Shown: positions 40,366-44,438 of the stretch, piece after piece | Numbering within the stretch: position 1 is the stretch's first letter | Layout: each line of letters opens with the position of its first letter | NCBI GenBank assembly: GCA_016178595.1 | Contig: JACOSY010000006.1 | Span: 1-44,438, forward strand | Source of the DNA: Ignavibacteria bacterium | GTDB lineage: Bacteria > Bacteroidota > Ignavibacteria > UBA10030 > SZUA-254 | Direction: 5' to 3' | Length of the DNA stretch: 44,438 nucleotides | Notes under the pieces: generated by a model | Database searches by the model: none | What the model was told of the DNA's origin: nothing | The model's input: only the letters and a program-made list of their open reading frames with translations | Made by a program: the position numbers and the translations under genes

Positions 40366-40761
40366 ATGGATAAATTCGATCCTCTGCCAAAACGGGTCGA
40401 AGAACTAGCCAGCATCACGGTTGATTCAGCATTTAAGGTACACAGCACACTTGGACCAGGACTTCTGGAATCTGTATACGAAATTTGTCTCGTACATGAA
40501 CTCAAACATAGAGGCATGAGGGTTGAAAGACAAGTTGCTGTTCCATTCGTTTACGATACTGTTAGGTTTGATATAGGCTTTCGACTTGACATCCTCGTCG
40601 AAGAACAACTTATTGTTGAGCTCAAAGCCGTCGAAACAATGATGCCGCTTTTTGATGCACAGTTGCTTACGTATTTAAAACTGACCGGTCATCGGTTAGG
40701 GCTTCTAATCAACTTTAATGTACCGTTGATCAAAGACGGGATTCGTCGAATAATTCTTTAA
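40366..40761 (+). CDS. GxxExxY family protein
   Basis: A 131-residue protein of the GxxExxY family (PDDEXK_3). The name motif is GLLESVYE near residue 29, and the nuclease-like core RLDILVEEQLIVELKAVE carries D, E and K in the PDDEXK order, followed by QLLTYLKLTGHRLGLLINF. An AGGGAGG site lies five bases before the ATG. An imperfect inverted repeat follows at 40772-40814. The family is widespread and often sits near mobile elements; function is unproven. Confidence 0.88.
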   Translation: MDKFDPLPKRVEELASITVDSAFKVHSTLGPGLLESVYEICLVHELKHRGMRVERQVAVPFVYDTVRFDIGFRLDILVEEQLIVELKAVETMMPLFDAQLLTYLKLTGHRLGLLINFNVPLIKDGIRRIIL

Positions 40762-40814: not shown

Positions 40815-40980
40815 AGAAAATGGTCTACCATGCGGAAGCTGCGCGATCTCTTTAACGGCCCGCGAACATCTTTTCATTGCCATTTCCTGCCGCATTTGAT
40901 ATATTGATTCAAGAAGTATACGAGTATGTGAGAAGGGTTTCTGCCATCCCGGGTACTCATCTCTTCGGTTGCATCATCAT

Positions 40981-41964
40981 ATGAAAAAATACACACTCAA
41001 AAAACCGGCGGGCGAGCTTCATCTTGTCCATCCGCAGCAATTCCAGATCGACTACAAGAACGAGCTGAACCCTGCGCAGTACGAAGCGGCGACGTCTGTG
41101 AACGGCCCGCATCTCATCGTTGCTGGCGCGGGCACGGGGAAGACGCGCACGATCGTGTATCGCGTTGCGTTTATGGTTGAGCTTGGCGTGAAGCCGGAAC
41201 ACATCCTTCTCCTCACCTTCACACGCAAGGCGGCACAGGAGATGCTTCGCCGTGCTTCGATCGTTCTCGATTACCGGTGCGAAAAGGTGGCAGGAGGAAC
41301 ATTCCATTCGTTCGCAAATCTTACGCTCCGGAAACATGCACCGCTCCTCGGGTACGACCGCAGCTTTACGATCCTCGATCAGGGTGACGCGGAAGATGTC
41401 GTGAACCTCATCCGTACACGGCTGAAGCTCGACACGAAGGAGCGCCGCTTCCCCCGCAAAGAAACGCTCTACGATCTCCACAGCCGGTCGATCAATACCG
41501 TCACGCCCGTTGCCGATCTCCTTGCGGCAGACTATCCGCACTACCTCGAGCTCGAATCAGACATTCGAAAAGTGCATGACATGTACACCGAGTACAAGAA
41601 GTCGCACAACCTCATGGACTACGACGACCTGCTTTTGAATCTTGTACGATTGTTGAAGGAACAGGAATCGATCAGGGCGGATGTATCGAACCGCTACAAG
41701 TACATCATGGTCGACGAGTACCAGGACACGAACAAGCTTCAATCGGAGATTGTCCGACTTCTTGCATACAAACACCGGAACGTTATGGTCGTCGGTGACG
41801 ACTCACAATCGATCTACGCATTCCGCGGCGCTTCCATCCGCAACATTCTTGATTTCCCGGAGGAATTCCGAGAGTGCAAAGTCATCAAGTTGGAAGAAAA
41901 CTATCGCAGCACGCAGGCGATCCTGAACGTTGCCAATGAGATATTACAAAGAGCGCTCGACTGA
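40981..41964 (+). CDS. UvrD/PcrA-like helicase, N-terminal half
   Basis: A 327-residue frame holding the first half of a superfamily 1A helicase: Q motif LNPAQYEAA, Walker A AGAGTGKT (about 49-56), motif Ib region GTFHSFA, motif II VDEYQDTN (about 243-250), motif III GDDSQSIYAFRGA, and motif IV LEENYRST. It stops at 41964 after ILQRALD. In intact UvrD/PcrA the sequence continues directly into what is encoded at 42933-43952. By itself it lacks motifs V and VI and could not be a full helicase. A start at 40969 is possible. Confidence 0.85.
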   Translation: MKKYTLKKPAGELHLVHPQQFQIDYKNELNPAQYEAATSVNGPHLIVAGAGTGKTRTIVYRVAFMVELGVKPEHILLLTFTRKAAQEMLRRASIVLDYRCEKVAGGTFHSFANLTLRKHAPLLGYDRSFTILDQGDAEDVVNLIRTRLKLDTKERRFPRKETLYDLHSRSINTVTPVADLLAADYPHYLELESDIRKVHDMYTEYKKSHNLMDYDDLLLNLVRLLKEQESIRADVSNRYKYIMVDEYQDTNKLQSEIVRLLAYKHRNVMVVGDDSQSIYAFRGASIRNILDFPEEFRECKVIKLEENYRSTQAILNVANEILQRALD

Positions 41965-42006
41965 GACATGCAAAACCAATTCCCGCCAGCAATCTTACAC
42001 TATTCA

Positions 42007-42825
42007 ATGTCAATGCAAACACGCCTCGCAGTTCTCTTGACAATTCTGCTTGCAGTTTTTCTTCTCGGCTGTCCTTCAACGCAGGAAGTGAAGAAGGAAG
42101 AGCCTCCGATAAAACCCGGCACAACGAAGGAGAAGAAGCCGACCGAGCCTGAGATAACGCTACAGGTTGCCTTACTCGACCTTTCATCCTATACGAAGAA
42201 GATCGAGAACGTCGACGTGACGCAATTTGCGAGCGAGCTGAAGCGCGAAAAGATCGACGTCCTGGCGCTGCAGGGAATCACACGCTACCCCGGCCTTTCG
42301 ACACGAGTCGATATCGTTGAAGCGCTGACCAACACCGCTGAAATGCGGAACGTTTTCGGCGAAACGATCACACTCAACAACAGGCAAGGCGGGAATGCAA
42401 TCTTCTCGACGTACCCGATACGTTCGAGCGAGAATTCGCATTACACAGAATTGCAATCAAACGGGTTCGAGGCGGCACTGCAGGCAATGATCGATTGCGG
42501 AGTCCGGGATGTCGTCGTTGTGAGTACAAAATTGCCGGAGAAGGCGTCGGTAGGGGAGCTGGCAAGCACATCGAATCTGTTCAGCGGGTTCAGCTCGTTT
42601 TACATCAATCATCCCATTATCATTATGGGGAGTGTTCCGCCCTCCGGCATGTTACAGGTGAGCCAGACATACACGGAAGTGCGGCAGGTGCACGATCCCA
42701 AGCTGCCGCGTGCGTGGTATTCGAACGACGGCTCTCTGAAACCCGGCAGCGTGAGGATCGAACGAACGATCTTCGGACCGATGGTGATTGTCCAGTTCGG
42801 AATTTTCAGGCAGAAGCAGCCATAA
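42007..42825 (+). CDS. Lipoprotein with a degenerate endonuclease/exonuclease/phosphatase fold
   Basis: A 272-residue lipoprotein with signal and lipobox VFLLGC, then a charged linker. The mature part follows the order of the EEP (DNase I-like) fold: VALLDLSS, IDVLALQGI, GGNAIFSTYPI, VRDVVVVSTKL, IIIMGSVPPSG. The catalytic positions are changed: LQE is LQG (Gly near residue 90), NTHL is STKL, GDFN is GSVP, and no terminal SDH is seen. It is probably non-enzymatic. It lies between the two helicase halves, with no clear promoter of its own. The start may be at 41968 or 42013. Confidence 0.65.
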   Translation: MSMQTRLAVLLTILLAVFLLGCPSTQEVKKEEPPIKPGTTKEKKPTEPEITLQVALLDLSSYTKKIENVDVTQFASELKREKIDVLALQGITRYPGLSTRVDIVEALTNTAEMRNVFGETITLNNRQGGNAIFSTYPIRSSENSHYTELQSNGFEAALQAMIDCGVRDVVVVSTKLPEKASVGELASTSNLFSGFSSFYINHPIIIMGSVPPSGMLQVSQTYTEVRQVHDPKLPRAWYSNDGSLKPGSVRIERTIFGPMVIVQFGIFRQKQP

Positions 42826-42834
42826 GAACGTTGT

Positions 42835-42922
42835 GGTAGGACAGAACCCCTGTTCTGTCCGGACAGGACGGAGTCCTGTCCTACCAATTTCTTAACGAAG
42901 GCGACGTGACGCTACGTCGCCT
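42835..42922. repeat. Three hairpins before the second helicase half
   Basis: GGACAGAAC/GTTCTGTCC (42839-42860) and GGACAGGAC/GTCCTGTCC (42861-42881) lie back to back and are enclosed by GGTAGGACAG/CTGTCCTACC (42835-42885). A third hairpin, AGGCGACGT/ACGTCGCCT, is at 42899-42922. They fill nearly all of the gap between the lipoprotein stop and the next ATG. Confidence 0.8.
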
Positions 42923-42932
42923 GCTGAGATAA

Positions 42933-43952
42933 ATGACAAGACACAAATATACCAAACAGCTTTTCACGCACAAGAAGGAAGGCTCGCTCCCGCAGCTCGT
43001 CATCGCGGAGAACGAAAACAGCCAATCCAAATTCGTCGTCCAGAAAATCCTCGAGCTTCGCGAGCAGAATATCCCGCTCGACGACATCGCCGTTCTGTTC
43101 CGATCCTCCTTCCTCTCGTTCGATCTCGAAATCGAGCTGACGAAAGCGAACGTCCCGTTTGTGAAATACGGCGGCTTCAAGTTCATCGAGACCTCGCATG
43201 TGAAAGACTTGATTGCCTACTTGCGCGTGCTGGAAAATCCGAGAGACGTCGTCTCGTGGAACCGCATTCTTCTCCTTCTTGATAGAATCGGTCCACGAAC
43301 GGCTGAGAAAATCATCGACGATATCCTTCACCGCCATGCATCCACATCGGCGTCTTCCTTCTGGAAGGAGTACAATTCATACCCGGCGCATATAAAAGAG
43401 TTATTCGAGACTCTCAAGTTGATTGTACCCGAGAAGTACGATCCCGCAGAAAAAGTTTCGCGCATCATTACCTACTACCATCCGATCTTCAAGAAGCGGT
43501 ACGACGATCACACCAAGCGCAAGAAAGACCTCGACGCATTCGAACAGATCGCCGCACGGTACAAAGACGTGAATAACCTCCTTGCCGACCTCGCGCTCGA
43601 GCCGCCGAACGAGAGCATCACGGACATTTCCTCCCCCGGTCACGATGACGAATACCTGACACTGTCGACGATTCACAGCGCCAAAGGACTCGAGTGGCAC
43701 AGCGTCTTCATCCTCTACGCGCTCGACGGCCGTTTCCCCACAACCCGCGCCGCCAATGACGTCGACGAGATGGAAGAAGAGCGGCGGCTCATGTACGTCG
43801 CCTGCACGCGCGCGAAGGAAAATCTTTTCATCACGTATCCCATCAATATCTACGACCGGGAAACGGGAACGATTCTCACCAAACCGTCACGCTTCCTTGA
43901 AGGGTTGGACGAGAAGCTGCTCGAGCCGTGGGTGATTGAAGAGGAAGGATGA
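42933..43952 (+). CDS. UvrD/PcrA-like helicase, C-terminal half
   Basis: A 339-residue frame with the second half of the helicase: the segment after motif IV (KYTKQLFTHKKEGSLPQ), motif IVa-like IAVLFRSS, the FVKYGGFKFIETSHVKDLIAYLR stretch, motif V LSTIHSAKGLEW (about 243-254) and motif VI EEERRLMYVACTRAKENL. Together with the N-half it makes about 666 residues, near a full PcrA length. No ribosome site precedes the ATG at 42933, and an in-frame TAA lies just before it. Confidence 0.85.
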   Translation: MTRHKYTKQLFTHKKEGSLPQLVIAENENSQSKFVVQKILELREQNIPLDDIAVLFRSSFLSFDLEIELTKANVPFVKYGGFKFIETSHVKDLIAYLRVLENPRDVVSWNRILLLLDRIGPRTAEKIIDDILHRHASTSASSFWKEYNSYPAHIKELFETLKLIVPEKYDPAEKVSRIITYYHPIFKKRYDDHTKRKKDLDAFEQIAARYKDVNNLLADLALEPPNESITDISSPGHDDEYLTLSTIHSAKGLEWHSVFILYALDGRFPTTRAANDVDEMEEERRLMYVACTRAKENLFITYPINIYDRETGTILTKPSRFLEGLDEKLLEPWVIEEEG

Positions 43953-44306: not shown

Positions 44307-44438
44307 TCAATGAGCAAGTGCAACACGCCGGTTAAAGACTTCGCGTGGTGTTTGATAATGTAATATTTTTCTTGGTCTGTTGTTCATGCGTCGTTCTAAA
44401 CGTTTCACATCAGCATTGGAGACAGCGTCGAAGTTTGT
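44307..44438 (-). mobile_element. IS30-family transposase, C-terminal end (partial)
   Basis: The minus frame entering from the right edge encodes 43 residues ending at 44307. It has the IS30 ending: RRMNNRPRKILHYQTPREVF then VALAH and stop. The rest of the transposase and the right end lie outside the window; the left inverted repeat should be within about 50 bp of the stop but cannot be fixed without the other end. Confidence 0.85.

Follow-up and report, generated by a model that had tools for sequence, protein, structure and literature searches.

Two separate genes encode the parts of a UvrD-family helicase

The window analyzed here is the whole 44,438-nucleotide contig JACOSY010000006.1 of an Ignavibacteria bacterium (Bacteroidota), one entire contig of a 3.1-Mb draft genome in 61 contigs. 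Close to its end, two forward-strand genes each encode part of a UvrD/PcrA-type helicase. The gene for the N-terminal part (positions 40981 to 41964) covers domains 1A and 1B and the motif IV strand and helix of domain 2A, with motifs I, Ia, II, III, and IV. It starts either at an ATG at 40981, where the alignment of its homologues begins, or at a TTG at 40969, and its product ends in ...NVANEILQRALD before the stop codon at 41962 to 41964. The gene for the C-terminal part (42933 to 43952) opens with MTRHKYTKQLFT... and covers the remainder of 2A together with 2B, carrying motifs V and VI. The N half matches UvrD-helicase (PF00580, E value of 7e-75, 252.6 bits against a cutoff of 23) and the C half UvrD_C (PF13361, E value of 1e-50, 173.3 bits against a cutoff of 25.6). 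Both domain assignments and the open reading frames agree with the original prediction, which had placed motifs I to IV in a frame ending at 41964 and motifs V and VI in a frame starting at 42933. The invariant residues likewise agree with SF1A membership for the N-terminal ATP-binding core (motifs I to III and IV) and for the C-terminal core (motifs V and VI); the two cores lie on a single polypeptide in the outgroup homologues and on two polypeptides here and in relatives of the same order.

Aligned to the TIGR01073 pcrA profile, the N half covers positions 3 to 295 and the C half positions 299 to 637, and on PcrA itself (1pjr) the two halves cover residues 11 to 302 and 307 to 647. Since this coverage is nearly contiguous, almost nothing is missing and the break is clean, as had been proposed from the adjacency of the two ends in intact homologues. 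The break lies between PcrA residues 302 and 307, and an intact sequence from a related family (f20) crosses the same junction uninterrupted (NEIIDKAAREKYTKVLYT). We take the cut to fall in PcrA domain 2A, just past motif IV. With 276.7 bits for the N half and 169.1 bits for the C half, neither reaches the PcrA equivalog cutoff of 911.2 bits, and the aligned part of the pair ends at profile position 637 of 725, so that it is without the C-terminal extension of PcrA. The genome also encodes a canonical PcrA-like open reading frame of 755 amino acids (aa); the split pair is thus an additional helicase, paralogous to that PcrA and no replacement for it, and is not required for PcrA's essential role.

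The interval between the two coding parts (41962 to 42932, forward strand) differs in content by lineage, as judged from the junctions and the open reading frames within the gaps. In the window it holds the predicted lipoprotein gene, confirmed as an open reading frame at 42007 to 42825 and encoding 272 aa from the ATG at 42007 (285 aa from 41968). In the spacer ahead of the C half lies a near-perfect inverted repeat at 42834 to 42886 (GGTAGGACAGAACCCCTGTTCTGTCC...GGACAGGACGGAGTCCTGTCCTACC), a hairpin from a dispersed repeat family to which the genome has 32 complete or partial matches. A search against Rfam found no element near the break. The hexamer CTGAGA does flank the insert as a direct repeat (41961 to 41966 and 42924 to 42929), but the window contains this hexamer 21 times where chance predicts 25 occurrences, and we reject it as an insertion footprint; the argument that excision between the two copies would leave a TGA in frame falls with it, the 6-mer being a chance occurrence.

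We found no neighborhood that is conserved across families, except in family f9, where the same gene follows the N half in four genomes. Immediately upstream of the N half in the window is a gene for a PDDEXK_3 family nuclease-like protein (40366 to 40761), which the relatives compared do not have next to the helicase. At 44307 to 44438, on the minus strand, an open reading frame runs off the end of the contig (...RRMNNRPRKILHYQTPREVFNRR); it presumably represents the C terminus of an IS30-type transposase, and a repeated insertion sequence probably forms the end of the contig.

The same break throughout an order

We searched the family (15 genomes) and the order (98 genomes) separately for each half. 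Matches to the C half were present in 66 genomes and matches to the N half in 69. In two genomes (G017 and G091) the N-half matches were weaker (43 to 46% identity) and belonged to intact open reading frames of 681 to 750 aa; being both weak and intact, these are other helicases. Wherever N and C halves share a contig, they form two reading frames on one strand, N preceding C, and our reanalysis of the fetched DNA placed the split at the same residue in 56 of 56 loci that have both halves, counting the window. The N protein invariably terminates a little past N[YF]RSTQxILNxANEIL, and the C protein begins immediately ahead of KxLYT. No uninterrupted copy was found in any relative within the order: the order's copies are all split, and their halves are not unrelated proteins. 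The draft state of the genome, in its 61 contigs, might raise the suspicion of misassembly or of a sequencing error at the locus; 56 loci, taken from independent assemblies and with differing gap sequences, share the identical split, which makes such an artefact virtually inconceivable.

The arrangement of the halves also bears on whether they might be rejoined after all, by recoding (stop readthrough or frameshifting), by a split intein, or by RNA trans-splicing. Gaps of merely 2 to 30 bp in some relatives, a few of them in frame, would suit such a mechanism, but the stop-to-start distance across split loci ranges from -4 bp to 7.2 kb (the latter in G071), gaps of 1 to 7 kb or a separation onto different contigs occur, and the start of the C half may overlap the stop of the N half. 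The N-half stop codons are mixed (TGA in 27 loci, TAA in 18, and TAG in 11), and the relative frames of the two halves are evenly distributed (17/21/18). At the junction there is no extra intein-like sequence, no added domain in either half, and no Rfam intron, that is, none of the flanking sequence by which a split intein or trans-splicing would be recognized. We consider rejoining highly improbable. In several loci of families f4 and f6 the stop and start are arranged as TGATG, TAATG, or 4-base overlaps, which is compatible with translational coupling. At the other extreme is f9, the single additional family of the class to carry the split, in which the N and C halves are on different contigs in five genomes; in one of these (G100) they are at least 23 kb apart, as calculated from the lengths of its contigs.

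Genomes with an apparent single half mostly reflect contig ends or incomplete assemblies, and near-complete genomes keep both. Some genomes of the order are without both halves (mostly in f6, and also in f3); in these the pair is dispensable. Some N or C halves seem to contain stops, which in the cases inspected fall at the margins of the alignment and do not interrupt the motor internally. In G006 (L162, 550 to 1533) the gene after the N half codes for an unrelated repeat protein, and motif IV is ESYRST, not ENYRST; no C half was found in this assembly, which is 61% complete. In G042 the split pair is present twice on one contig, in opposite orientation and at equal scores (G042:C31:35570-37770 and 87557-89757), reflecting either duplication or an assembly effect.

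Gap contents and the intercalated lipoprotein

The lipoprotein gene lies exactly where an insertion that broke the helicase would lie, and a homologue occupies the same place between the halves in f1 and in part of f2, though only there. A gene-into-gene insertion was one reading offered by the original prediction; in a fuller form of it, the lipoprotein or another mobile gene would have split the helicase and later losses would have left bare gaps. It fits poorly with the remaining families. The gap in f5 (L143 to L156) holds a homocysteine S-methyltransferase gene (PF02574, E value of 6e-68), the gaps in f4, f6, part of f2, G005, G014, and G064 are without a conserved gene, and the halves in f9 are unlinked. 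In many f4 genomes the lipoprotein homologue and the helicase genes are on different contigs, and the lipoprotein shows no features of transposition. We also considered whether the lipoprotein of f1 and the gap gene of f5 share an ancestor, and rejected this on a profile comparison probability of 1.4% and on the Pfam assignment of the latter. As the two are unrelated, the spot between the halves took up genes at least twice. Because the gap content varies by family and many f4 genomes carry the lipoprotein elsewhere, we read the lipoprotein gene, from these sequence comparisons, as a later, unrelated passenger and not as the general cause of the split. It could have been the very first insertion at the root of the split, but an insertional cause overall seems to us improbable.

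The lipoprotein has a weak, below-cutoff match to the endonuclease/exonuclease/phosphatase family (PF03372, E value of 3e-4). Nine members of the lipoprotein family have QG, QQ, QT, or QS where this fold normally has QE, and since the catalytic Glu after Gln is replaced in all nine, the protein is probably not an active member of the fold. Conserved motifs of the lipoprotein family are RYP and FGE..RQ.GN, and its dN/dS values are 0.12 to 0.28.

Intact homologues and the origin of the split

Intact single open reading frames of about 655 to 760 aa (with a few longer frames included) encode homologues in the other families of the class and phylum that we sampled, in Deltaproteobacteria, and in Rhodohalobacter, and these outgroup homologues are contiguous across the point at which the order's genes are divided, as gene fission would require. 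The intact members of the subfamily are 42 to 62% identical in the C half. G165 is a partial exception, with a frame of 318 aa. In a phylogeny of the N and C parts of 94 sequences, 56 of which are split entries and include f9, all 56 split entries form one clade with a support of 1.0 that is sister to the intact f20. Trees of the N part and the C part alone also recovered the split clade, with low support (0.33 and 0.19). A single split clade with an intact sister indicates that the fission was single and old, and the simplest reading of these sequences would place it in an ancestor of the order and one other family of the class.

Selection and structure argue for a functional pair

An interrupted frame that holds a foreign gene is the usual appearance of a dead gene, and a decaying helicase broken by insertion was among the readings originally proposed. 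The dN/dS check on each half speaks strongly against it. Across genera, values calculated by NG86 for nine pairs are 0.013 to 0.075 in both halves; they are rough, dS being saturated in several pairs, and the unsaturated pairs are concordant. Comparison of the window with locus L104 gives 0.06 to 0.07, and the split halves are no higher than intact relatives (0.03 to 0.2 where computable). Sixteen catalytic positions in motifs I to VI are invariant in 56 of 56 split pairs, so that every catalytic residue is kept in a split that is fixed throughout an order. With both halves under strong purifying selection, a pseudogene is extremely improbable. Joint inheritance of the halves together with this purifying selection is what gene fission predicts.

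AlphaFold2 models place both halves in the expected folds. The N half (pLDDT of 86.5) has PcrA (3pjr) as its best match (Z score of 33.7, rmsd of 2.0 over 281 residues), and the C half (pLDDT of 81.2) matches UvrD-family structures at Z scores of about 22 to 25, for example 9dci_A (Z score of 24.9, rmsd of 4.0 over 308 residues). Conservation is higher in the 2A segment at the tail of the N protein (0.86) than in the remainder of the N half (0.77), yet the model of the N half alone places this segment poorly (pLDDT of about 50 to 70), as would be expected if its structural surroundings come from the C protein.

We also considered that the halves might have taken on separate functions without forming a joint motor, the N protein acting, for example, as a DNA-binding ATPase and the C protein as a regulator of PcrA. 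That the halves can be unlinked and that a canonical PcrA is available as a possible partner would both accommodate such a division. However, motif IV in the N protein and motifs V and VI in the C protein, which work only jointly in known SF1 motors, are equally invariant, and the halves are retained together in near-complete genomes. Separate functions are therefore quite improbable, in our view somewhat more so than an origin by insertion.

A predicted two-subunit SF1A motor

The same break across an order, together with strong selection on both halves, makes a working two-part motor the most likely interpretation of these sequences, rather than a gene broken by a lipoprotein gene. We assign a probability of roughly 0.86 to a two-subunit SF1A (UvrD-family) helicase that arose by one old fission and in which 2A would be completed in trans; among the three readings first offered, it is the two-subunit helicase that the data support. 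We hypothesize that an ancestral one-chain UvrD/PcrA-like gene (SF1A, 3'-5') underwent a single split, in the loop that follows the helix of motif IV in the RecA-like domain 2A. The resulting N subunit of about 330 aa would comprise 1A and 1B along with the initial strand and helix of 2A, and the C subunit of about 340 aa the remaining 2A and 2B. The ATP site would lie between 1A (motifs I, II, and III of the N subunit) and 2A (the motif VI arginine of the C subunit), with motif IV of the N subunit completing 2A. Because the ATP site and 2A would be shared between the subunits, neither should be a motor alone and noncovalent association would be needed; neither half has gained a new dimerization domain. 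The heterodimer would work like a monomeric UvrD-family translocase. We infer this mechanism, including assembly, ATPase and helicase activity, polarity, and cellular role, from known SF1A structures.

A more speculative extension, which we think unlikely though less so than the alternatives above, is that the split brought a gain of function: a motor switched by the assembly of two separately controlled subunits, with its formation as the regulatory step. Separate control is suggested because the subunits are unlinked in f9 and appear translationally coupled in parts of f4 and f6.

SF1A helicases are textbook single-chain motors. The split pair resembles PcrA, UvrD, and Rep (PcrA 1PJR/3PJR, UvrD 2IS1, and Rep 1UAA) in its seven motifs, in the order of 1A, 1B, 2A, and 2B, and in fold, but these are one chain, whereas the pair is two chains cut within 2A. 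AddAB, RecBCD, and AdnAB are likewise SF1A motors that need several polypeptides; each of their subunits, however, has its own complete or degenerate core, whereas the split pair divides one core. A helicase gene divided in two in a natural lineage is known from the Lhr helicase of Nanoarchaeota (PMC3655853), which belongs to another helicase family and has differing split sites in two nanoarchaea with strongly reduced symbiont genomes, in contrast to the one fixed site found here throughout an order whose genomes measure about 3 Mb. The split mitochondrial cox2 gene (COXIIA/COXIIB) offers a parallel in its fission into complementary polypeptides, thought to be heterodimeric, with unrelated open reading frames between the halves (PMC5374615), but it encodes an organellar membrane protein, and an insertional origin involving a nuclease has been proposed for it. 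In a limited search of the open-access literature, with subscription papers outside its scope, we found no earlier description of a split or two-subunit UvrD-type helicase.

The locus carries a practical warning, in that annotation pipelines may label such genes "partial" or "pseudogene." It is also a clear example of gene fission in bacteria, with the gene still intact in the sister lineage and the outgroups. An ancient and maintained break inside a RecA-like domain would, moreover, constitute a natural test of the extent to which mechanical coupling in this family of motors depends on an unbroken chain.
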